A stretch of DNA of 64,000 nt. Source: a bacterium. Lineage in GTDB: Bacteria > Verrucomicrobiota > Verrucomicrobiia > Limisphaerales > RI-55. Under the pieces are notes generated by a model, which worked only from the letters and a program-made list of their open reading frames with translations, made no database searches and was not told the origin of the DNA. Positions 23,706 to 37,143 of this stretch are shown here, piece by piece. Each line of letters opens with the position of its first letter. Positions within the stretch are counted from its first letter, which is position 1. Position numbers and translations under genes: made by a program. The stretch spans positions 186,001 through 250,000 of the forward strand of contig WGOC01000017.1 in assembly GCA_016124235.1 (NCBI GenBank), written 5' to 3'.

Positions 23706-24479
23706 CTACGAATTGCCGACCAACTTGTCCAAGGCATCCCGGTGCGTTCGGCTCATCGTGAGCCGCGTGCCGTCCTTGAGGATCACCGCCTGGTCACCGT
23801 GAAAGAGCGGTTGCAGCTCACGCACCGTGCGCGGATGCACGATCACCGACCGGCTGATCCGAACGAAGCCGGCACCGGAGAGTCGTTGCTCGATGGAGCT
23901 CATCGTTTCGCGCATCAAATGCTCCACTTTGCCGACGTGTAACTTCACGTAGTTGTCGGCCGCCTCCACCCAATCGATGTCGGCGGTGTTCACAAACAAA
24001 ATGCGCCCGCTCGACTTCACGGCGATGCGATCCGGAGCAGTCGCCGGTGCGGGACGTTTCATACCGGCGAGCAGAGCGGAAATCTGATCCTGTAAATGCG
24101 TCTGTTCATTGGGAGCGGCGAGCAACTGGCGCGCGCGATCCAATGCCTTTTGAAGGCGTTCGCGATCGAAGGGTTTCAGCAGATAGTCCAGCGCGTGAAC
24201 TTCAAATGCCTTCAACGCGAATTGATCGTGCGCGGTCACAAAAACAACGGCGGGCCGCGCGTCGGCCGGTAATTCGGCCAGTACGCCGAAACCATCCAGT
24301 TCCGGCATCTGCACATCGAGGAATACGAGATCGGGACTGGTCTCCGCGATGCGGTCAAGCGCAGTGCGTCCATCGCCGGCTTCCCCGACGACCTCAATGT
24401 CGGCCTCCTTGGCGAGCAGGCTTTTCATCTTCCCGCGCGCCAGCGGTTCATCATCGACGATCAATACACGCAAAGGCAT
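23706..24479 (-). CDS. LytTR-family response regulator
   Basis: VLIVDDEPLARGKMKSLL receiver domain and C-terminal LytTR domain (DIDWVEAADNYVKLHVG...SIEQRLSGAGFVRISRSVIVH). Confidence 0.95.
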   Translation of the reverse strand: MPLRVLIVDDEPLARGKMKSLLAKEADIEVVGEAGDGRTALDRIAETSPDLVFLDVQMPELDGFGVLAELPADARPAVVFVTAHDQFALKAFEVHALDYLLKPFDRERLQKALDRARQLLAAPNEQTHLQDQISALLAGMKRPAPATAPDRIAVKSSGRILFVNTADIDWVEAADNYVKLHVGKVEHLMRETMSSIEQRLSGAGFVRISRSVIVHPRTVRELQPLFHGDQAVILKDGTRLTMSRTHRDALDKLVGNS

Positions 24480-24489
24480 GGCGCAAGTG

Positions 24490-25599
24490 TTAGCCGGTTG
24501 ACGGGTTCACTGCAATGCTGCGACACGGCAACGTGATGGCCGCGCGAAACCCACCGCCGTCCGCCGACCCCAAATTGAATGTCTGCCCGTCGCCATAAAG
24601 CTGGCGAAGGCGATTCCGGGTATTGGTCAGCCCAACCCCTTCCTTCCACTCGCCGGCGGGAGCGCCGTTGCCGGTATCGCGCACTTCCAAAAGCAAATCG
24701 TCGCGCTCGCGTCGGGAACTGATGGTCACTCGCCCGGCCCGCGCATGGGGCTCAATCCCGTGCTGGATCGCATTTTCCACGAGCGGTTGCAGCACGAGAT
24801 TGGGTACGAGCAGGTCCGTCGTGTCGGGCGCGATGTTCAATTCAATCTTTAAACGATCGCCGAAGCGAGTTTCCTCAATTTCCAGATAACGCTTCAGAAA
24901 ATCAATTTCCTCCTGCAGCGGCACTTCCTGTTGCTCGGTCGATTCGAGCGCGTGGCGAAGCAACTCGCTCAACCGCGTGATCATGCGATCGGCCGCGTCG
25001 ACATCCTGATGCATCAACGCCGAGATGGCGTGCAGCGTGTTGAACAGAAAATGCGGATTGAGTTGCATCTGAAGCGCCTGTAACCGGGCCTCCACCAGAC
25101 GCTTTTCCAGTTCGGCCGTCCGCGTCACACGTTCCTGAAATTTACGGTAAAATTCCAGCGCGTGTGCGACGCTGAGGATCACCCAGTAGATCAACAAGTT
25201 GAAATGCCAGGTCTTGCCCAACAGCACTTTGAACGCTTCAACGTAGGTGGTCCCCAATCCCGCCACGCCCGGTTGCCACAACGCGACGAAACTCCGCAAG
25301 GCGACGAACAAGATCGAGAACACGATACTCGTCATGAAGTGGATCGCAAAACGCGCTCCCCAGTCGGGTCCGTCGAGTCCAAAGCGCCGCGCCTGGCGAA
25401 GGGGAATGAACGACAGCAGCGCGAAGACATACCAGTCGGCAAGCGAATGACTGAGCGCCAGCTTCCAGGAAATTGCCGAACCCGTCTGCGAACTGCTGAT
25501 GAACAACTGTCCGGCAAACGAAAGACCAATGAGCGTCCACAACCCGAAGATCAGGATGAAGGCAATCCAGCGTTTTGAAAGGGCGGTTGGCGCGGCCAT
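24490..25599 (-). CDS. LytS/YehU-like sensor histidine kinase
   Basis: LQMQLNPHFLFNTLHAISALMH and VPNLVLQPLVENAIQHGIEP motifs; N-terminal membrane segments. Confidence 0.95.
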   Translation of the reverse strand: MAAPTALSKRWIAFILIFGLWTLIGLSFAGQLFISSSQTGSAISWKLALSHSLADWYVFALLSFIPLRQARRFGLDGPDWGARFAIHFMTSIVFSILFVALRSFVALWQPGVAGLGTTYVEAFKVLLGKTWHFNLLIYWVILSVAHALEFYRKFQERVTRTAELEKRLVEARLQALQMQLNPHFLFNTLHAISALMHQDVDAADRMITRLSELLRHALESTEQQEVPLQEEIDFLKRYLEIEETRFGDRLKIELNIAPDTTDLLVPNLVLQPLVENAIQHGIEPHARAGRVTISSRRERDDLLLEVRDTGNGAPAGEWKEGVGLTNTRNRLRQLYGDGQTFNLGSADGGGFRAAITLPCRSIAVNPSTG

Positions 25600-26482: not shown

Positions 26483-26731
26483 TTGTCGCCCGGAAACATT
26501 TCGGCAACCTCGGCGGCGATGAGTCCCACGGAAGCGATTGGCGAATTGCGGAGCCGCAGCAACGAGATTGCGAAGTGCGTCACCGCGATGCATCCCACTT
26601 TGAAACACCTCGGCAATCCCGCGACGCAAGGAGAGATCGTGCGCGCGTTGTTCGAATTAACGAAGCAGGTCGAGGTCGTGAAGAAGCAACTGTTGAAGCT
26701 CGAGAAACAGGACAACTCAACGCTGCTTTGA
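26483..26731 (+). CDS. Small hypothetical protein
   Basis: 82-aa ORF with plausible coiled C-terminus; convergent to the cyclase gene and overlapping its 3' end. Confidence 0.45.
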   Translation: MSPGNISATSAAMSPTEAIGELRSRSNEIAKCVTAMHPTLKHLGNPATQGEIVRALFELTKQVEVVKKQLLKLEKQDNSTLL

Positions 26732-28522
26732 GCGCAGCTTTCCCAGAGCACTCGTGGCGAAGATGAGCGGATACAGTTGCTCGAAATACCAAAGGCGGGC
26801 GAAGTAGAGGCCGATCGGCGCGGCCTTCAGAGAATCGGCAGAATCAAGTTTGGCAAGCAACCACTTCACGCCGCGATCCACCGCCGAATGGTATTGGGGC
26901 GAATCGGCCAGAGCTTCCAGCGCAAGCGCCGTTTCTTCAACGGAAGTCTGCACACCAGCATCCCCTCCCCAACCACCGTCGCGACCTTGAGCGGCCAATA
27001 AAAACTCCGCCGCGCGCTCGATCATGGGGGCATCGATGTCAACCTTCCGCCGGATCAGTTCATTCAAGGAAATCAACACCTGCGCGGTTCCGTAAACTGC
27101 GTTCTCGTGGGCGGCGGCATTTTCATTGCCAAACCAGAGCGGTATCCAGGCACCGTCGCCTCGTTGAGCCTTGCTCAAAAAATGAAGCGCACGAGGAATT
27201 GCACTGGCGAGTCGTCTTCCAAGCACGGCGTCAAGATGTGCGCGCCAAACGGTCCACGCCCGTAATGCGTGTACGGTAATCTCTGGCGTGCTGCGATCGA
27301 ACGGCAATGTACCCCAGCCGCGACAAAATGTGGGGATGCCACCGTCACGATTCTGCAAATCGAGCAACCAGCGCGCCCCCGCTTCGACGGCGCGAATCGT
27401 TGCTTCGTCGGGCTCACCCAACTCGTATAACGCAAGCAACGCACCGGCCGTGTCGTCGGCGTCCGGCACCCCGCCGGGAAGATCCGTCCACGCCCAACCA
27501 CCCGGCGCGGCGCCGGTGTAGGGATGCACGGTTTGATATTGCTGTTTGAGCAGCCATTCCCGAAGCGTCTGCTTTTCCGTCGGCGACAACGCGTCCGGTT
27601 GATGAGCCAATGCCTTGATCGAGAGCGTTGTCACCCAGGTGGCGAGATTGGTGTCGATCGGCCAACTGCCGTCAGCGAGTACGGACTGACGCAGGAATTC
27701 CCCGCCTTTGCGCGCCACGGCATTTCCGCCGAGCCCCATGCTCGCAAGGCTCATTGTGACAAAGGCCGTCAGCGGCGTCGCTTCGAGAAAACCGCCATTG
27801 GCGGGTTGAAGTTGTTCCAGCGTTTGCAGCGTACGATTTCGCGACACATCGCGAACGACTCGCGCAACTGGATTTTTCGATGGCGAATGAAAATGAATCG
27901 TCTGACCGATCGCGATCAAGGCCGGCAACGCGTAGCTCACGACGGGAAGTTGCAGTGCGCCGAACCAAGAGCGTGGAAACATCGCCAACTCAAATGGAAG
28001 TGCGCGAACTTGTCCCCAGCCGTTTTTGCCGAGTCGTCCGCTCAACGCCAGTGTCATGACAATCGGCACCGAGAACGTCCGGTCTTTTCCGTACGCGGCC
28101 TCGATTGCTGGCACCACGTTTTCAAGGCTCCCGGCCGTCCGCTCGATGTAGTTCACCGCACTGGCAACAACGCTTTCAAAATCCCTGTCCATACCGGCCG
28201 CGCCAAATGCCGCCCAAACGAGCGCAGTCGTCGAAAGGTTGCTTTGGCTGCGGATGGTATCGCCCCAGCCACCGTCTTCATTCACGTGGTCCGCCAGCCA
28301 ACGCAGCCCGTTGGCGACGAACTGTTCGTGATGATTGGCGCCGCTTTGTCGATCGAGTTCCCCCAACGCGATCGTGGCAACGGCGGTGGACAACGCACTG
28401 CTGCTGAGTTCGCCGGACCAGTGACCTTGCTCGTTCATTGCGGCCAGCAAAGCGGAAGTTGTACGTTCAAGCACTGAGGTGATTGAACTAAATTTCGCAG
28501 AGGTCGAACCCTGGCCGTTCAT
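26717..28522 (-). CDS. Squalene-hopene-cyclase-like class II terpene cyclase
   Basis: DADDTAGALLAL (DxDD catalytic motif), QW-type repeats NEDGGWGDT, QNRDGGIPTFCRGWG, QGRDGGWGGD. Confidence 0.85.
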   Translation of the reverse strand: MNGQGSTSAKFSSITSVLERTTSALLAAMNEQGHWSGELSSSALSTAVATIALGELDRQSGANHHEQFVANGLRWLADHVNEDGGWGDTIRSQSNLSTTALVWAAFGAAGMDRDFESVVASAVNYIERTAGSLENVVPAIEAAYGKDRTFSVPIVMTLALSGRLGKNGWGQVRALPFELAMFPRSWFGALQLPVVSYALPALIAIGQTIHFHSPSKNPVARVVRDVSRNRTLQTLEQLQPANGGFLEATPLTAFVTMSLASMGLGGNAVARKGGEFLRQSVLADGSWPIDTNLATWVTTLSIKALAHQPDALSPTEKQTLREWLLKQQYQTVHPYTGAAPGGWAWTDLPGGVPDADDTAGALLALYELGEPDEATIRAVEAGARWLLDLQNRDGGIPTFCRGWGTLPFDRSTPEITVHALRAWTVWRAHLDAVLGRRLASAIPRALHFLSKAQRGDGAWIPLWFGNENAAAHENAVYGTAQVLISLNELIRRKVDIDAPMIERAAEFLLAAQGRDGGWGGDAGVQTSVEETALALEALADSPQYHSAVDRGVKWLLAKLDSADSLKAAPIGLYFARLWYFEQLYPLIFATSALGKLRSKQR

Positions 28523-29400
28523 ACGCTCAGATGCCCAAGCGCCAGCAAACCGTAATATGTGTATTCCGCATCGAGAAAATCGTCGGCCCAGTGACCATGA
28601 AACCCACCATCAGCACTCCACAATGTATCGATAAAATCCAGGCAGCGTTCATGCACGCCACTCGGTATGCGGCGATCCATGCAGGCCAAAGCGTGAAGTG
28701 CGGTAGCGGTCGAAAGCAGGTCGGGCAACGGCGCGTTGGGCACCGCCTTGAAGCCGCCTTGCGGATGCGCCTGCGCCATCAACCAATCGCCAACCGCCTG
28801 GTTCACCGGAAAGCCGAGGTGCGTGATCAAGGTGACCGCGCCGGCTGTCGCATTTAACGAACCAACTGTTTGTTCGGGTGCGTTACTCCAAGCGTGATCC
28901 GCCGTCTCAAGTCGTTTCAAACTGCGAATGAGTTCCAACACGCGCGGTGGCTTGGTGTCGAGATCTTCGTAAGCACCAAGAGCGACGAAGGCGTCATAAG
29001 CCGTCCCAAAACCGGCTTTGGGATTCGAGTGATAACCGCCGTCCGGCTGACGATAATCTTCAAGCCGTTTCAACAACGCTCGCGCCGTTTCACGCGTGGC
29101 GCCACCAGTCGCCGCCCAACATCGAGCGAGCGCTCCCAAGTGCACAAAGTCGAGCGATTCGCCATCGCCAAAAGTGGTCAGCCATTGGCGGGTGATGTCG
29201 ATCGGCGCCTGGGCGTCGGTGGCCTGCGCACCGGCAAGCGCAAAGATGGTGTAATAGAGATCCGGTTTGCCGGCGCGATCGGAGGCGGCTCCATCGGCGT
29301 CGAATTGTCGCGAGTAGAAATCGCGCACGAGATCCATCGATTCACCGAGCAATCTCGGCGCGAGGCGGGCGACTTGCAGGAGCTGAAGACGGATCGACAT
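28519..29400 (-). CDS. Prenyltransferase beta-subunit-like (alpha/alpha-toroid) protein
   Basis: Repeated PDGGYHSNPKAGFGTAYDAF, HPQGGFKAVPNAPLPDLLSTATAL, SADGGFHGHWADDFLDAEYTYYGLLAL. Confidence 0.8.
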   Translation of the reverse strand: MSIRLQLLQVARLAPRLLGESMDLVRDFYSRQFDADGAASDRAGKPDLYYTIFALAGAQATDAQAPIDITRQWLTTFGDGESLDFVHLGALARCWAATGGATRETARALLKRLEDYRQPDGGYHSNPKAGFGTAYDAFVALGAYEDLDTKPPRVLELIRSLKRLETADHAWSNAPEQTVGSLNATAGAVTLITHLGFPVNQAVGDWLMAQAHPQGGFKAVPNAPLPDLLSTATALHALACMDRRIPSGVHERCLDFIDTLWSADGGFHGHWADDFLDAEYTYYGLLALGHLSV

Positions 29401-29409
29401 CGTCCACGA

Positions 29410-29838
29410 CTACTTAGCCCAAAACTTCCACCATGGCCTTTTTGACGGAACTGACAAAGAGACAAGTTCGCCAAAAACCTCAGGAACCACTCGAAAAAAA
29501 CCGGCAATTCCATCATCAAGTCCGTTGTCAATCTGTTTGGCTATTTTAGAAAAAGGGAACGCCACGTTTTGATCGTCAAACGCCACACACCACGTCCCTT
29601 CTCGTTGAATCCAACTCCCGCCATAACATTGAACCAGGCACTCTCCCAAGTAAGATCCAAATACGCTCTCCAACTTATGGCGATTGTTTTCATCTTCGAA
29701 TTCTCCGCCTGCCCGAAGGCGTTCAATGTAGTCCTCCAACCACTCAACCGATTTACGATTGTAACCGAAATCTTTCCAGCTCAACGGGCGAAGCTGAGCG
29801 ATGACCATTTCAGAGTTTGCTCGGATTTTCTCCCTCAC
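29410..29838 (-). CDS. Small conserved-looking protein, possibly DUF3806-like
   Basis: YNRKSVEWLEDYIERLR...SYLGECLVQCYGGSWIQREGTWCVAFDDQNVAFPFSKIAKQ; family assignment tentative. Confidence 0.55.
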   Translation of the reverse strand: MREKIRANSEMVIAQLRPLSWKDFGYNRKSVEWLEDYIERLRAGGEFEDENNRHKLESVFGSYLGECLVQCYGGSWIQREGTWCVAFDDQNVAFPFSKIAKQIDNGLDDGIAGFFRVVPEVFGELVSLSVPSKRPWWKFWAK

Positions 29839-29857
29839 AAGGACGAATTACATAGGC

Positions 29858-31612
29858 CTACGCCAACGCAGCAACGGGCAAGTCGGCGTGCTTTTGCGCA
29901 ATTTCCTGCTCATGTTCCTTGCACCAGCCTTTGATCTCTACGTCGTTGAAGATTTTGCCCAGCGTGCGCCGCAGCAAACCTTTGAGACTGGCGTTTTCCA
30001 GTTCAGCCAACGAACGTACCGCCTGCTCCTGGTAGCTCTCGAGCAAATGTTCACAGCGCTCGTCGGCTTTCAATTCACGGCAAAGTTCAGCCAAGCGTTC
30101 GGCATCCGGCGCTTCCTCGCGTCGCCAGATGCGATCCAGGTAATCACGATTTTCGCCGTTGGCCCGGTCGCGTGCGATCGCGAGCAGCAGGCTGGGGCGA
30201 AGATTGTCGAGATCGTTGGAGTCACCCGTGCCATCCCAGTCCGAAAGATCATCACGAACCTGATACGCGATGCCAAGTGCGGTGCTATAGGCGCCGAGAA
30301 CTTCCGCGCATTCCTCGTGCTGACCGGCTGCGAGCGCGCCGAGGCGGAGCGCGACTTCAAACGCCGGCGCGGTCTTGCGACGGAAGATGTCAACCACTTG
30401 CAGCGGTTTGAGCACGTCGGGTTTGCGGTTCCAGCCGAGTTCATCGCCCTGGCCGCGACACAATTCGCGTTGACCTTCGGCCGCAACCCGCAACATGGCG
30501 CTCTTCGTCTCCGCCGAAAGACCGCACGTGGCGAGCAAGCGATAACCCTCGCCAATCAACAAATCGCCGACGTTCAACGCCACGGCCGTTCCGTGTTCCG
30601 CGTGCAACGTCTTTTCGCCATAACGAATTTCGTCACCGTCCTCGATGTCGTCATGGATAAGCGATGCCTTGTGGAAACATTCGACCGCCACTGCCACTTT
30701 TCGTAGATCAGCCGGCAATTCACCGTTCACGGGATTGGCCAGCGCGCGATACGCGGCGACGGTCAAGAACGGCCGCCAGCGTTTGCCGGCGCGCATCAAC
30801 CATTGACGGGCGATGCGTTCGGCTTCGGTGCTGCCATTGCCGAGAATGATTTCCAGAGATGCCGGCGAAAACCAGGAATCGACTTCGTCGCGCAACGCCG
30901 ATAAATCGAGCCGGCGAGTTTTGTCGTCGCTGCTGAGATGGATGTATTCCCAGACCCAGTCGAGATCGACGTTGGTATCGATGCAATCGTCCTGAAGCAA
31001 CGGCACCGCCACACCGGGAATCGCCGCCGCTTCCATGTACGGAAACGCGCGTTCCAACACGCTCAAACAACTCACACCGACGATCGCCTCGATCTGGCCG
31101 GTTTGAATCAGACTCATCACGATCGCGGAACCTTCGGCGACGAGCACCGCGTACCCCAGCTTTTCCGCCTCGACCGTCAGATCCTGAATCGAACACAAAC
31201 CGCACTGTTTGCAGAGCAAACCAAATTCATCGAACGGCGCGGGGCATTTGCTTTCCACGCGCAGACATTTTGGGAGCAGCAACAGGCGGCGTTCGTAGGG
31301 AACCGCGGCGAGCGATTCCCGCCACATTTCGTTGTTCAGCAATACGCCGACGTAGTCGCGGTAAATCGGATCGCATTTGAGCTCGGCCACCACGCGGTCG
31401 GCGTGGACCTTGAGCTCATCCGCTGGCAACGGAGGCACGGGATTGAATTCGGCGACGTAATTGCGGACAGCATGCAGAACGCGCTGCCGGTCGTGCAGGG
31501 TTTGCGGGACGTTTTTCTTGGGCGCGCGCCACGTCTGTTGCGGGACGAGGCGCGGAAGTCCGGTGGACGGACCACTGCCAACGGCTTGGTTGGAATTGTG
31601 CGACATATTCAA
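29858..31612 (-). CDS. DUF116 domain fused to trans-polyprenyl diphosphate synthase
   Basis: N-terminal Cys-rich DUF116-like LPKCLRVESKCPAPFDEFGLLCKQCGLCSIQDLTVEAEKLGYAV; C-terminal LIHDDIEDGDEIRYG (FARM) and YQVRDDLSDWDG (SARM). Confidence 0.88.
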   Translation of the reverse strand: MNMSHNSNQAVGSGPSTGLPRLVPQQTWRAPKKNVPQTLHDRQRVLHAVRNYVAEFNPVPPLPADELKVHADRVVAELKCDPIYRDYVGVLLNNEMWRESLAAVPYERRLLLLPKCLRVESKCPAPFDEFGLLCKQCGLCSIQDLTVEAEKLGYAVLVAEGSAIVMSLIQTGQIEAIVGVSCLSVLERAFPYMEAAAIPGVAVPLLQDDCIDTNVDLDWVWEYIHLSSDDKTRRLDLSALRDEVDSWFSPASLEIILGNGSTEAERIARQWLMRAGKRWRPFLTVAAYRALANPVNGELPADLRKVAVAVECFHKASLIHDDIEDGDEIRYGEKTLHAEHGTAVALNVGDLLIGEGYRLLATCGLSAETKSAMLRVAAEGQRELCRGQGDELGWNRKPDVLKPLQVVDIFRRKTAPAFEVALRLGALAAGQHEECAEVLGAYSTALGIAYQVRDDLSDWDGTGDSNDLDNLRPSLLLAIARDRANGENRDYLDRIWRREEAPDAERLAELCRELKADERCEHLLESYQEQAVRSLAELENASLKGLLRRTLGKIFNDVEIKGWCKEHEQEIAQKHADLPVAALA

Positions 31613-32892
31613 CGGGCTGCTGGTTGTGCGTTTACCGCGGCACCAGGTGTCAACTGGTCCCGCAATTTGCAGGCTTTGGCTTCGGCGTCGTGGGCCACCT
31701 TACGATAGGCTCCGAAATCCGAAAACCAGTATTTCTTGGAAAGTCGATACATCCAGTGTCGCTCGGGCACTTCCTCGCCCGGGAGCCACTGGCTGAAACG
31801 CGGTGTCATCGCGTCGAGTTCGGCCATCGCCGTGCCGCGCAAGGTCGTATCGCGGGCGCCATGCTTGACCACGAGTTCCTTGACCAGATCCGGTCGTTCG
31901 AGCACGACGCAACCGCGGGTGTGTTGAGCGCTCAAATCACGGAAATCGCGAAGAAATTCCGAATCGCGCATCGCGGCAAATACGCCACGCGGATCGCGAA
32001 TGTCTTCCTTGGCAAATTGAATGATCGGACACGGCTCAATTCCACCCGACGGCCCCACATGATGGCTGATACCGGTGGTCATCGGACACAACGCCTGACC
32101 CTGATGATCGTAATACGCGTCGATGATCGCGATCGGGACTTTTGCGCGCATCTCGACCACAAACTTCCGCGTTCGCACAAGTTGGTCCGGACGCAGGGCG
32201 AGCTCCTGATTCATCTTCGGGCCGACCGGCCGGTAGGTGTGATACCAGACGTAATGGACGCCGCGATCGATGAGTTCCCGCAGCCAGGTCTCGGTCAGCA
32301 ATTCGTCAATGTTCGACTGACACACGCTCGTGGCGACACCGGTCAAAAGTCCGGCGCGAAGGCAGTTATCCAATCCGCGCAAAGTGCGATTGAAAACGTC
32401 CTTGTTCCCGCGACGCTCATCACTCGTGATCTCGCGACCTTCGATGGAAATCAACGGCGTCGCGTTGCCCAGTTCCTTGAGCCTGCGCGCGACTTTTTCC
32501 GTGATGAACTGGCCGTTGGTGAAAACCTGGAAATAACAATCCGGATGCGCCGCCAGCAGATCGAGCAACTGCGGATGCATGAACGGTTCCCCGCCGAGGA
32601 TGCCGAAGAACGCATTGCCGTGGGCTTTGGCGTCGTTGATCGTGCGATTCAACGTGTCGAGATCGATCTCGGTGCGCTCGGCCGCGACGTCCACCCAACA
32701 ACCCTGACAGCGCAGGTTGCACGAGTTGAGAATCGAGAGATACAGGAACGGCGGAAAGTACTCGCCGCGTTTGATCCGGCGCTTGAACTTCTCCACCGAA
32801 AGCAGTCCTTTGAAACCGAAGTTCCAGGCAAACTTCCAGATGCAGCGCGGATCAGCGCTGAGCAACGTGCGGGTGACGAGGGAGGGGAGCAT
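31609..32892 (-). CDS. Radical SAM protein, HpnH-like architecture
   Basis: LSILNSCNLRCQGCWVD (CxxxCxxC), GILGGEPFMHPQLLDLL, ISIEGREITSDERRG. Confidence 0.88.
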   Translation of the reverse strand: MLPSLVTRTLLSADPRCIWKFAWNFGFKGLLSVEKFKRRIKRGEYFPPFLYLSILNSCNLRCQGCWVDVAAERTEIDLDTLNRTINDAKAHGNAFFGILGGEPFMHPQLLDLLAAHPDCYFQVFTNGQFITEKVARRLKELGNATPLISIEGREITSDERRGNKDVFNRTLRGLDNCLRAGLLTGVATSVCQSNIDELLTETWLRELIDRGVHYVWYHTYRPVGPKMNQELALRPDQLVRTRKFVVEMRAKVPIAIIDAYYDHQGQALCPMTTGISHHVGPSGGIEPCPIIQFAKEDIRDPRGVFAAMRDSEFLRDFRDLSAQHTRGCVVLERPDLVKELVVKHGARDTTLRGTAMAELDAMTPRFSQWLPGEEVPERHWMYRLSKKYWFSDFGAYRKVAHDAEAKACKLRDQLTPGAAVNAQPAAR

Positions 32893-32913
32893 CAGTGCTT
32901 TCGCGGATAATGG

Positions 32914-33132
32914 CTAGAGGGCGTTGAACTCGTCCACCGACATCCCGAGTTCGCGAATGATCGTTCGCAATGTCCCCTTGGGCACGTCGCCCGGATGGTT
33001 TGGAATCGGAACTGTCATATTTCTTTTGGCTGAATAGTAAACCGGATGCCGCTTGGTTCGTATCATCTCAAAACCTGCCCTCTTAAGCTTTCTTGCCAGC
33101 TCGCGGTGCGAGATGGGCACCAGTTTAGGCAT
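32914..33132 (-). CDS. hicA: HicA-family mRNA interferase toxin
   Basis: LARKLKRAGFEMIRTKRHPVYYS...VPIPNHPGDVPKGTLRTIIRELGMSVDEF. Confidence 0.85.
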   Translation of the reverse strand: MPKLVPISHRELARKLKRAGFEMIRTKRHPVYYSAKRNMTVPIPNHPGDVPKGTLRTIIRELGMSVDEFNAL

Positions 33133-33364
33133 GAGCCGGTCGACGATAGATGTTCAGACCGGCGTAGCGTGGCTTGCGCAACCTGGTCGCCGCGATCTTT
33201 TCGCGCGCCTCCAAACAGCTTTCGATCGCGTCCACTGTGTTCCGATAACATTCCTTCAGCGTCCTGCCCCAGGCAACACAGCCCCGAATCGCCGGAACGA
33301 CGGCGTTGAACATGCCGTCTTCGTCCTGAAAATAATCGATCTCGAATTCCTGGTGTTTCTTCAT
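33125..33364 (-). CDS. hicB: HicB-family antitoxin
   Basis: FEIDYFQDEDGMFNAVVPAIRGCVAWGRTLKECYRNTVDAIESCL; overlaps hicA by 8 bp. Confidence 0.8.
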   Translation of the reverse strand: MKKHQEFEIDYFQDEDGMFNAVVPAIRGCVAWGRTLKECYRNTVDAIESCLEAREKIAATRLRKPRYAGLNIYRRPAHA

Positions 33365-33387
33365 AAATGAATCGTAGGTTTCTAATT

Positions 33388-34221
33388 CTACCTTTGCAAC
33401 GCAGACTTCGCCTTGTTCGCCGCTTCCTCGGCCTTGCGGGCGATTTCCTCCGGCGAGGGCAGGCTCATCAAAACCTCGGGCGGAATGTCGTTGGCCATGC
33501 TCGCGAGTTTGACCAGACATTTCTGGCGTTCGGCGAGCGCCTTGTCGGAATCGCGCTCCTTGCTGAAACGGCTGCGCGCGCGTTCACTCCGATTGCGCAA
33601 CATCGAATAAACGTCACCGCCGAGCAACGCGGAGATGTCGATCTTCATCTTCTCGCGATTCAGGTCGGAATCGCTCACTTCATCGCCGTTGATCGGTCCG
33701 GCCTTGTATTTCGGGAACATGATGGCCGCCTCGGGGCAGACACGCGAACAAGCCGGGCAGTTGGTTTTGCAATTGTCGTTGTTCTGAACCTGGATGCGTT
33801 GTTCGTCGTCCACGCCGTAAACACCGAACAGGCAAAAGCTCAAACACTGCATGCAGTTGGTGCAGCGATCGTAATCGATGACCGGAAACCAGGGCTTCCA
33901 TTCGCCGGGTCGCGCGGCGCCCAAATCCGCTTGTTGGGAATCCAATTGATCCGCCAACGCGGCCGGCTCCAATCCTTCCAACGATTGCCAACGTACGCTT
34001 TGGGAATCCGATTCGACGGCGGGCGTTTCCGAGAATTTGCCCAGTACGGTAACGCGCGCTTCGTCCGCCGGAGCGACCGGTCTTTCCGCACCGGCGCGGG
34101 TCACGGCATAACCGCGTTCAAGCAACGCGCTGACGGTTTGAAAGCGCTCGTCGGGCGCGAGCGGTTCGGCACCGTTTCCCTCGTAGAGAACGACACGAAT
34201 GGTTGGATCAGTCAGGGCCAC
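33388..34221 (-). CDS. 2[4Fe-4S] ferredoxin-type protein
   Basis: DRCTNCMQCLSFC and CKTNCPACSRVCPEAAIMFP clusters in a 277-aa protein. Confidence 0.85.
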   Translation of the reverse strand: MALTDPTIRVVLYEGNGAEPLAPDERFQTVSALLERGYAVTRAGAERPVAPADEARVTVLGKFSETPAVESDSQSVRWQSLEGLEPAALADQLDSQQADLGAARPGEWKPWFPVIDYDRCTNCMQCLSFCLFGVYGVDDEQRIQVQNNDNCKTNCPACSRVCPEAAIMFPKYKAGPINGDEVSDSDLNREKMKIDISALLGGDVYSMLRNRSERARSRFSKERDSDKALAERQKCLVKLASMANDIPPEVLMSLPSPEEIARKAEEAANKAKSALQR

Positions 34222-34223
34222 AA

Positions 34224-34640
34224 TCAGGAAACGGTTGAGGGTTCTTCCGCAGTCGGCGCGTCCGCCTGAGTGACTTTGCCGGCGGGTAAATTCGGAGTCA
34301 CGGTTGGTTCAAACAACGCCGCACACGCGTCGTCGGCGGTCAGGTTGCGGAGGTTCACAATTTCCGTTTGTTCAATCTCCAACTGCGCGTTGGCCGCCGC
34401 GAACAACCACTTCACCGCGCGCGGAAAACAGGCGGCGATCTTCAGCGGACCCGCCGCCGCCAAACGGACCAATGACGCGTCACGTCGCGCGGAAAGTTCG
34501 CACAAGTCAGGCACCGCTTCGAACGGTTGCCCGGACTCGCACAGCTTTTGCAGGACGGCCTGCTTCACATCCTTGGGCAGCACCTGCGCGTACTGGCAGT
34601 GGCAGTAAAGAATGGCCGGCTTGTTGGGTACGTCACTCAT
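34224..34640 (-). CDS. HdrA N-terminal-domain-like cysteine protein (stand-alone)
   Basis: ILYCHCQYAQVLPKDV...LKIAACFPRAVKWLFAAANAQLE resembles HdrA CHC/AACSPRTHExLF pattern; tentative. Confidence 0.55.
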   Translation of the reverse strand: MSDVPNKPAILYCHCQYAQVLPKDVKQAVLQKLCESGQPFEAVPDLCELSARRDASLVRLAAAGPLKIAACFPRAVKWLFAAANAQLEIEQTEIVNLRNLTADDACAALFEPTVTPNLPAGKVTQADAPTAEEPSTVS

Positions 34641-36655
34641 GCGGTCGCGAGATCGGAATTCGTCACTCGATGAGTCGGAGTCGGACGTCCGGGTCGGAAA
34701 TGTTCGGAATGATCGAGGCGCGCGGTCAGGCCGGCGATCTTCTCCGGCAATGCCGCCACAGCGGCTTCAACGGCGGCACGCAAGTCAGCCGGATCGGCCT
34801 CGGCGCGGAGGTTCAAAATCAACTGACCCGACTCGGCCGGACCTTCCAGCGTGAGGCTGAGTTCCGGAATATAATCGCTGCGCACCAGGCTAATCGCCGC
34901 GATGTCGCCGATGCCTTGATCCGGATTAAACGTCATTTTGAGGTGCGCGATTTCGGCCTCGCCCAACCGTTGTTTCAAATCTTCCGCTAGCGTTCGCAAA
35001 AGGGCATTCGCATCGAGCGCCGAGCCGGTGATTTGCACGGTAGCGTTCAGCCAGCCCAACAATGCTTCGCCTTCGGCGTAAATGTCGTAATCAACCGCCA
35101 TCACCGGCCGCGTTGTCTGATCGCCGCTTAACACGCGATTGAACCACGCATCGACCCCGGCACCGGTGCGCACGGAGACCTTGAAGATTTCCTTGTTCGG
35201 GAATTCTTCGCCCAGCCGATGCTCGAGCCGCGTCAACCGTGCCTCGTCGAGCAGATCGGTTTTGGTGATCACCAGCAGATCCGCTTCCTCGGCCTGCTTG
35301 CGCCAAATGTAGAGAACCTTCTCGGAAAACTTCCGGCCCGGCGCCAAGCCAAATACCTGCTCCGCGCGAACCGGATCGACCAGCACACTCAACGGCGCAA
35401 TGCGGAAACGATCGCCATACATCCTTCGTAAAGGATACGTAACCGTTGCCACGAGGTCTGTGCAACTGCCGACCGGCTCGGCGACGAACGCGTCTGGCTG
35501 CGTGGCAGAGGTCAACTTGCCGGCGGCGTCGACGAGTGAATTGAAGCGACAGCAGAAGCAGCCGCCGGGAATTTCCTCGGTGGCAAATCCTCGCGCCCGC
35601 AGCATCGCGGTGTCGACCAGTTCACTGCCCTGGTCGTTGGTGATCAGGCCGACCTTCAGGCCGTCGCGAGTGAGACGCTGGGCGAGCGCCGCTACCGCGG
35701 TCGTTTTGCCGGCGCCGAGGAAGCCGCCGATCATAAAATAGCGCGCCGCTGACGAAGCGGATGTTTTTAGTTGTTCGCTCATGAGAATTTCACTTTTTGA
35801 CGTTTCAATATTTAGCGAGGTTTCTGTCGCCTCGACGGCAACCGCAAGTTGCGCATACGCCTGCCGGAATCCTAATCGATAAATCGCGCCGCCCAGCAGC
35901 CCGCCCAACAAAGGCGCAATCACGTAAACCGTCAACCAGCCCGAGCCATTGGTAACAAAGGGCACCCTGCCCCAACCAGCCAGCGTCGAAAATAATCGTG
36001 GCCCCAGGTCGCGCGCCGGATTGAAGCACGCCATCGTAAGTGGCCCCAAAAGCGAGATCAACAACGTCACCGTCAGGCCGATCGTCGCCGCGGTCAGCGC
36101 CTGCGGCCGCGACCGATTGTGTTCGTCCGTCACGCACAAAATCACCAGTAATAACACTGCAGTCCCCACCACCTCGGCGCCAAACGCCGCGCGCGGGGAC
36201 ATCGTCGCGAGTTTGGCAATCGTCAGCGGCTGGCCACCCGGGTTGGGAAAAAATTCACCGAACACCATCGCCGTTGCTTCGCTGCCCGGCTGGCCGCGCA
36301 CAATTCCGTGGGTTTGTTCATAGGAGAGCAAGGGGCCGCTAAATATTCCATAGAGAACGGCCGCCGCCACGAACGCACCTACCATTTGAGTGACAACATA
36401 CGGAAAAACTCGTCGGCGGGGAAAATCCGACCACACCGCCAGGCTCAATGTGACCGCCGGATTCAAATGGGCGCCGCTCAAGGAGCCGGTCAGGTAAATC
36501 GCCGTGGCGATTCCAAGTCCCCACACGATCGCCACCTGAAAAACCCCAACCTGCGCCCCGGTTAGTACGGCGGCGCACACACTGCCGCAACCGAAGAAGA
36601 CCAAAAGAAAGGTCCCCGCCAGCTCGCCCACCAACCAGCCCGGCAATTTGTTCAT
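34637..36655 (-). CDS. Aquaporin/MIP family channel fused to CobW/G3E-family GTPase
   Basis: MIP: SGAHLNPAVTLSL and ACFNPARDLGPR (two NPA-type motifs); GTPase: GGFLGAGKTT Walker A, GGCFCC, ITKTDLLD; single uninterrupted 672-aa frame. Confidence 0.85.
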   Translation of the reverse strand: MNKLPGWLVGELAGTFLLVFFGCGSVCAAVLTGAQVGVFQVAIVWGLGIATAIYLTGSLSGAHLNPAVTLSLAVWSDFPRRRVFPYVVTQMVGAFVAAAVLYGIFSGPLLSYEQTHGIVRGQPGSEATAMVFGEFFPNPGGQPLTIAKLATMSPRAAFGAEVVGTAVLLLVILCVTDEHNRSRPQALTAATIGLTVTLLISLLGPLTMACFNPARDLGPRLFSTLAGWGRVPFVTNGSGWLTVYVIAPLLGGLLGGAIYRLGFRQAYAQLAVAVEATETSLNIETSKSEILMSEQLKTSASSAARYFMIGGFLGAGKTTAVAALAQRLTRDGLKVGLITNDQGSELVDTAMLRARGFATEEIPGGCFCCRFNSLVDAAGKLTSATQPDAFVAEPVGSCTDLVATVTYPLRRMYGDRFRIAPLSVLVDPVRAEQVFGLAPGRKFSEKVLYIWRKQAEEADLLVITKTDLLDEARLTRLEHRLGEEFPNKEIFKVSVRTGAGVDAWFNRVLSGDQTTRPVMAVDYDIYAEGEALLGWLNATVQITGSALDANALLRTLAEDLKQRLGEAEIAHLKMTFNPDQGIGDIAAISLVRSDYIPELSLTLEGPAESGQLILNLRAEADPADLRAAVEAAVAALPEKIAGLTARLDHSEHFRPGRPTPTHRVTNSDLATA

Positions 36656-37143
36656 GGGTTCGATTCGTCAGATTTCTGTTTTTCCAACATCCGGTCAATC
36701 GTCGCGTCCAGCAGTGCCCGATAGCCATCGATATCCATCACGCGTTCATCCGGTTTGCCGGAGAATTCGTAGAGCCAGCCGGCATCGTATGGACGCTCCG
36801 TAATCCCGGCAAGCGAGGTCGCCAGTTCCGGGTTGCCACCGGCGAACTTCCCGTTCCCGACAGAATAAATGTCGCTGATAGCCTTAAAGCCTTCCACCGT
36901 GCCGAGGATGTCGCCCGTCTGGACGGCAGCGCCGGCCGCATATTCAAATTGTACGTCCACCAGCTCGCCGAGCATCCGCAGGGCAAACTTCGTGTAACCG
37001 ACCCGCCATCGCCCACCTTCCGGAGCATCCGCATCCACTTGCATCAACCAATTGTGGGAGTGCGTGTATAGATGCGTCCTCGGCAGATGGGTTACAAAGG
37101 TGGCGCGTTTGTAAAGCACGGTGGGTGTCACAGCGGCCGCCAC
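36652..37143 (-). CDS. GcvH-like lipoyl domain protein
   Basis: GTVEGFKAISDIYSV lipoylation-type motif with Lys; HNWLMQVD...RVGYTKFALRMLGELVDVQF matches GcvH N-terminus; AGWLYEF C-terminal motif. Confidence 0.8.
   Translation of the reverse strand: MAAAVTPTVLYKRATFVTHLPRTHLYTHSHNWLMQVDADAPEGGRWRVGYTKFALRMLGELVDVQFEYAAGAAVQTGDILGTVEGFKAISDIYSVGNGKFAGGNPELATSLAGITERPYDAGWLYEFSGKPDERVMDIDGYRALLDATIDRMLEKQKSDESNP

Follow-up and report, generated by a model that had tools for sequence, protein, structure and literature searches.

A conserved Verrucomicrobiota operon that joins a GcvH-family lipoyl carrier to a radical-SAM enzyme and isoprenoid genes

Introduction

What could a lipoyl carrier of the GcvH family be doing among iron-sulfur proteins, away from the glycine cleavage system? 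This question is raised by a stretch of 64,000 nucleotides from a bacterium of the Limisphaerales (Verrucomicrobiota; assembly GCA_016124235.1, contig WGOC01000017.1, positions 186,001 to 250,000 of the forward strand), hereafter the window. An initial annotation, made from the sequence alone, had described there a minimal four-gene redox module, composed of a GcvH-like lipoyl protein, a fusion of an aquaporin (MIP) with a GTPase, a small cysteine protein resembling the N-terminal part of HdrA, and a ferredoxin, for which it proposed an analogy with the Lbp/sHdr systems of sulfur oxidation and a role in small-solute import. To our knowledge, only a few roles exist for protein-bound lipoate, namely in central 2-oxoacid and glycine metabolism and in sHdr sulfur oxidation. 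Should a lipoyl carrier be tied to isoprenoid synthesis and to radical S-adenosylmethionine (radical-SAM) chemistry, the case considered here, this list would grow by one.

Results

The genes of the initial annotation make up the first half of one operon, which spans window positions 26717-37143 on the minus strand and runs on past the end of the ferredoxin gene at 33388 (Table 1). The open reading frames (ORFs) of the lipoyl protein (GcvHx), the MIP::GTPase fusion, the small cysteine protein (HdrAs) and the ferredoxin (Fdx) are all intact where the initial annotation had placed them, on the minus strand and free of internal stops, and their junctions are also as described: overlaps of 4 bp between GcvHx and MIP::GTPase (36652/36655) and between MIP::GTPase and HdrAs (34637/34640), and a gap of 2 bp between HdrAs and the ferredoxin gene (34221/34224). 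What that description missed was the other half of the operon, with a radical-SAM enzyme (rSAM) and the isoprenoid genes. The order 3' of the ferredoxin gene is HicB, HicA, rSAM, a fusion of DUF116 with a polyprenyl diphosphate synthase (DUF116::PPS), and the toroid proteins TC2 and TC1, with overlaps or gaps of 2-23 bp throughout, except for 457 bp before TC2.

The synteny GcvHx-GTPase-HdrAs-Fdx-rSAM-DUF116::PPS-TC2-TC1 recurs in order-level relatives and in some 25 further named loci from metagenome-assembled genomes (MAGs), so that about 35 Verrucomicrobiota loci share this gene order overall. Among 58 related genomes, each of a different genus with the exception of one pair, 32 carry GcvHx, 34 carry rSAM and 29 have the two together; the p values of Fisher tests, which ignore phylogeny, were 2.7e-8 for GcvHx with rSAM, 5e-11 for GcvHx with Fdx and 1e-12 for rSAM with Fdx. 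Synteny and cross-genome co-occurrence together confirm the co-conservation of the lipoyl, GTPase, cysteine-protein and ferredoxin genes. A scan of the phylum recovered rSAM in 41 of 243 genomes, other classes included, and the best 80 of 578 relatives in a scan of named genomes nearly all bear Verrucomicrobiota titles, the others having MAG titles that are unresolved or doubtful. Freshwater and soil MAGs of this phylum commonly carry the cluster, and the cultured Brevifollis gellanilyticus has the rSAM, HdrAs and ferredoxin genes; among plasmid records the only hits were remote matches of the prenyl synthase in Embleya.

Two forms of the cluster can be distinguished. A compact core, HdrAs::Fdx-rSAM-DUF116::PPS-TC2-TC1, occurs in other classes (L182-L186, L192) without GcvHx and the GTPase, while the extended form adds to this core GcvHx, the GTPase and a NifS-like cysteine desulfurase. 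The last of these adjoins GcvHx in divergent orientation in more than 20 loci, and in L197 it lies within a co-directional operon, GcvHx-GTPase-CysDes-rSAM-HdrAs-Fdx-DUF116::PPS-TC2. Another locus, L178, holds the complete GcvHx-GTPase-HdrAs-Fdx-DUF116::PPS-TC2-TC1 set with rSAM beside it. In the window genome the closest desulfurase homologue (62% identity) is unlinked; this genome, in which the window belongs to contig C1, has 3.9 Mb and a listed completeness of 56%, so that a missing gene carries little weight.

The best-conserved members of the cluster are rSAM and DUF116, rather than the four genes first noticed. Even in a deliberately diverse set, rSAM keeps a mean column identity of 67%, with the CxxxCxxC motif in 123 of 125 sequences and a twitch-like C-x(9-15)-G-x4-C pattern in all 125 (C-x13-G-x4-C plus one more cysteine in the window), and by this motif test the enzyme has a predicted auxiliary cluster in a twitch/SPASM-like domain. 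Copies lacking CxxxCxxC were seen in L078 and L138, and could be inactive, the result of sequencing error, or one contig present in two collections. Selenocysteine, suggested by an in-frame TGA in many matches, was rejected after translation, where these codons proved to be natural C-terminal stops.

DUF116 and the synthase form one ORF in all 29 copies examined. The first Asp-rich motif of the synthase, DDxxD, is present in 81/81 sequences, and the second is seen as an invariant DD in alignment A4 and as the strict pattern in 73/81; the cysteine cluster of DUF116 is kept in 83/83. As for the toroid proteins, the class-II acid motif DxDD(T) occurs in every TC1 (29/29), and DxDD in no TC2 (0/58). 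TC1 scores well below the family cut-offs, reaching 95.8 of the 431 bits set for the hopene-cyclase equivalog and 132 of the 323 set for the squalene cyclase subfamily.

HdrAs has an invariant CxC and DLC (89/89) and a Rossmann-like predicted model of good quality (pLDDT 90). The cysteine protein of the initial annotation is real, while its HdrA character finds little backing. No HdrA profile matched the window protein, and the weak HdrA hits that came from one alignment member each were attributed to a row running into the ferredoxin. Among the fold hits listed, many of them Rossmann-like, HdrA 5odc_A has the best TM score (TMq 0.46), with an E of 0.22; the label "HdrA-like" is weakly supported by these models and offers a lead only. 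The Cys motifs of the ferredoxin are kept in 78/78 sequences. Since HdrAs and Fdx are a single ORF in the divergent genomes L065, L067, L072, L077 and L091, both proteins probably act together as one unit. Taken with the motifs above, which are conserved at their catalytic positions, all components of the operon look catalytically competent.

GcvHx is a paralogue, not a copy, of the glycine cleavage protein. Its profile matches GcvH structures (E 1e-24), and the lipoyl-lysine motif is conserved in 70/70 homologues (EGFKA in 67, EGLKA in the three from L178-L180), yet it falls far below the equivalog cut-offs of the NCBIfam gcvH models (57 bits against 115.85 and 66.6 against 117). In the tree, GcvHx and the genomes' own GcvH form two separate clades (support 100/99), at about 27-37% identity within the same genomes. 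The canonical GcvH of the window genome adjoins GcvT on contig C20, and neither GcvT nor GcvP was found beside GcvHx. Neighbourhood conservation and this phylogeny, the checks that the initial annotation had named, leave its grouping standing, GcvHx being neither without its conserved neighbours nor the only GcvH of its genome. By comparison with L141, translation of GcvHx probably starts at an in-frame GTG about 12 bp inside the annotated ORF.

Relatives carry genes for LipA and LplA/LipB, so that lipoylation of GcvHx is possible. A dedicated lipoate ligase, for which a search had been advised, was rejected as its partner: most genomes have two LplA/LipB-type genes, whether GcvHx is present or not, and the operon and the conserved genes around it contained neither a specific ligase nor hdr-like genes. 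The LbpA proteins of the sHdr pathway have two strictly conserved cysteines, one N-terminal and one C-terminal (PMC6067878). By this criterion GcvHx was rejected as an LbpA, because the window protein is free of cysteine and the family alignment has no invariant cysteine column. Elsewhere, a third, long-branched GcvH-like gene (L202, G047:C87:6900-7600) lies near a separate ferredoxin match (G047:C87:7959-8165), possibly as another lipoyl/iron-sulfur pair.

The second gene joins in one frame a MIP domain (residues 8-259) and a COG0523/CobW-type GTPase (residues ~305-660), whose Walker A and CxCC motifs are kept in 58/58 sequences. Profiles and motifs uphold the fusion, as they do the GcvH-like and 2[4Fe-4S] ferredoxin identities. 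The MIP domain was found in just one relative, L141, again in frame; in both proteins the linker has diverged and an internal Met lies near the start of the GTPase. These sequences favour reading the aquaporin as a fusion specific to this lineage and outside the conserved system, to which only the GTPase half belongs, and the proposal of small-solute import loses its footing.

Table 1. Genes of the operon in the window, in order of transcription
Feature	Coordinates	Strand	Supporting match or remark
GcvHx, GcvH-family lipoyl carrier (GcvH paralogue)	36652..37143	-	Pfam GCV_H E 1.6e-14
MIP aquaporin domain::COG0523/CobW-type GTPase, in-frame fusion	34637..36655	-	Pfam MIP 1.7e-44, cobW 1.8e-23
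HdrAs, 138-aa alpha/beta Cys protein	34224..34640	-	no Pfam/NCBIfam family; invariant CxC and DLC
Ferredoxin (Fdx), two [4Fe-4S] motifs, N- and C-terminal extensions	33388..34221	-	PorD/KorD-type 4.2e-10
HicB-type antitoxin, operon insertion	33125..33364	-	HicB_lk_antitox 1.6e-4
HicA-type toxin, operon insertion	32914..33132	-	HicA_toxin 1.5e-11
Radical-SAM enzyme (rSAM)	31609..32892	-	Radical_SAM 7.9e-14
DUF116 (Cys-rich)::trans-polyprenyl diphosphate synthase (PPS)	29858..31606	-	DUF116 4.1e-36, polyprenyl_synt 1.3e-43; start in ORF list 31612 (TTG)
TC2, single prenyltransferase alpha-alpha toroid protein	28519..29400	-	Prenyltrans 3e-9
TC1, squalene-hopene-cyclase-type protein	26717..28522	-	SQHop_cyclase_C 9.7e-33, SQHop_cyclase_N 2.4e-13

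The junction between Fdx and rSAM is an insertion hotspot. It carries HicAB in L098, L130 and L141, as it does in the window (32914-33364), HicB alone in L121, and different small genes, GIY-YIG- and Uma2-like by eye, at other loci. Between DUF116::PPS and TC2 (29401-29857) there is an open frame of about 140 amino acids that matched no conserved family, and L098 likewise has additional sequence at this junction. Downstream of the operon, a LytS/LytTR-type sensor kinase and response regulator (23706-25599) are not conserved with it. In other classes, a BioB-like radical-SAM gene lies directly upstream of the core in one locus (L186:8457-9383), and genes for NapH/NapG-like polyferredoxins and for NHL and BamB/PQQ_2 propellers flank it in several loci among L178, L182, L183, L184, L186 and L192. 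The PQQ propeller was rejected as an obligate part: its best orthologues (E <1e-140) occur in 13/34 rSAM-positive and 3/24 rSAM-negative relatives, and such genes are therefore accessory at most.

Discussion

From the gene content, the fusions, the synteny, the co-occurrence and the conserved catalytic motifs we infer a pathway whose every reaction and order of steps is put here conditionally, as are its product and what the lipoyl arm would do. On balance, we lean towards an operon that makes an isoprenoid product and modifies it by radical chemistry, this product probably being a terpenoid membrane lipid or a lipid-like cofactor. The DUF116-fused synthase would make an all-trans polyprenyl diphosphate, and this molecule, or a product of it, would be protonated by the DxDD acid of TC1 and cyclised, with the assistance of TC2. 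The rSAM enzyme, with a second iron-sulfur cluster in its twitch-like domain, would then modify the product using electrons from the HdrAs-Fdx unit, and DUF116 could serve as its further iron-sulfur partner. In the extended form, the lipoyl arm of GcvHx may carry an intermediate or a sulfur or redox equivalent, while the COG0523 GTPase would supply metal and the cysteine desulfurase would supply sulfur, either to the product or perhaps to rebuild a sacrificed auxiliary cluster of rSAM. An analogy for such an arm is found in the H protein, which bears the octanoyl/lipoyl intermediates on which LipA, a radical-SAM enzyme, acts. A more specific version, in which lipoyl carrier, cysteine desulfurase and rSAM act on the isoprenoid in a new pathway, for example by sulfur insertion or by forming a new C-C bond, is tentative and somewhat doubtful.

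Several observations weigh against an isoprenoid-modifying operon. The predicted model of DUF116 is poor (pLDDT 59). TC1 and TC2 are not adjacent to the core in all genomes (L103, L122, L129), and in some genomes the genes of rSAM, GcvHx and Fdx are spread over different contigs. The core form of other classes lacks GcvHx, the GTPase and the desulfurase, so the link of these three to the isoprenoid step would be indirect; moreover, L025, L101, L113 and L120 have no GTPase gene between GcvHx and HdrAs, and the GTPase is therefore not obligatory there.

The same genes could be read as a redox or sulfur module akin to sHdr/LbpA, in which GcvHx shuttles sulfur or electrons between an HdrA-like protein and the ferredoxin, the isoprenoid genes being mere co-residents of the operon. 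The conserved lipoyl lysine, the linked cysteine desulfurase and the rank of HdrA among the fold hits of HdrAs all fit this scheme, which we nevertheless consider unlikely given the missing LbpA cysteines and the lack of an HdrA profile match, and also the fact that HdrAs-Fdx tracks rSAM and DUF116::PPS rather than GcvHx.

Two other alternatives keep the isoprenoid at the centre. It might be a quinone-like prenyl electron carrier of a redox-cofactor or respiratory system, used by the NapG/NapH-type polyferredoxins and PQQ-like propellers that flank the core in other classes. However, within the window's order most of the best propeller orthologues sit on separate contigs, and such orthologues turn up in rSAM-negative genomes too; the window genome itself yields only weaker propeller matches, and next to the core no gene for an aromatic prenyltransferase could be recognised, all of which make this carrier as improbable as the sulfur module. 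The operon might otherwise be an ordinary hopanoid or terpene cluster to which housekeeping iron-sulfur genes are loosely attached. Terpene clusters, many of them unnamed, dominate the counts of biosynthetic gene clusters in Verrucomicrobiota, and the Pedosphaerales are among the richest orders (PMC8692599); in addition, TC1 matches squalene-hopene cyclase domains and has the DxDD motif. We give this last reading the least credit of all, as the TC1 scores stay far from the cut-offs of both cyclase families, and the iron-sulfur, rSAM and DUF116 genes are the best conserved and persist where the TC genes are not adjacent.

A link of the lipoyl carrier to isoprenoid synthesis and radical-SAM chemistry would lengthen the short list of lipoate functions, and the Cys-rich family DUF116, so far without a function, would gain one. 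The more specific and doubtful pathway above would, if it exists, yield a new class of lipid or prenyl cofactor and take lipoate beyond central metabolism and sulfur oxidation. As an operon the cluster is real and conserved, and it is apparently undescribed so far: a literature search, with most subscription journals outside its reach, found no description of it, and surveys of biosynthetic gene clusters may have counted it without describing it.

Comparison with known systems

With the GcvH of the glycine cleavage system GcvHx shares the fold family and the lipoyl lysine, whereas its separate clade, its low gcvH scores and the absence of neighbouring GcvT and GcvP set it apart. LbpA of the sHdr pathway is a parallel in context, being also a GcvH-like lipoyl protein whose gene is linked to those of iron-sulfur proteins (PMC6067878). 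In our case, however, the cysteine pair is missing, the operon has no HdrB, HdrC, TusA, DsrE or dedicated ligase, and the partners of GcvHx are rSAM and isoprenoid enzymes.

On the isoprenoid side, the squalene-hopene cyclase and sesquarterpene (sporulene-type) pathways likewise combine a prenyl synthase with a DxDD toroid cyclase. The present system differs from them in the fusion of the synthase to DUF116, in the rSAM, ferredoxin and lipoyl partners, and in a TC1 below the family cut-offs. The COG0523/CobW metallochaperone GTPases have the Walker A and CxCC motifs of the window GTPase, but its aquaporin fusion is confined to the window lineage. Finally, NirJ, AhbC/D (heme/SPASM-type) and HpnH share with the window rSAM the CxxxCxxC core and a twitch/SPASM-like Cys pattern; in NCBIfam it scores highest with NirJ-type models, at about 70 bits, and only 37 bits with HpnH, far below every equivalog cut-off, and this enzyme is a conserved family of its own.

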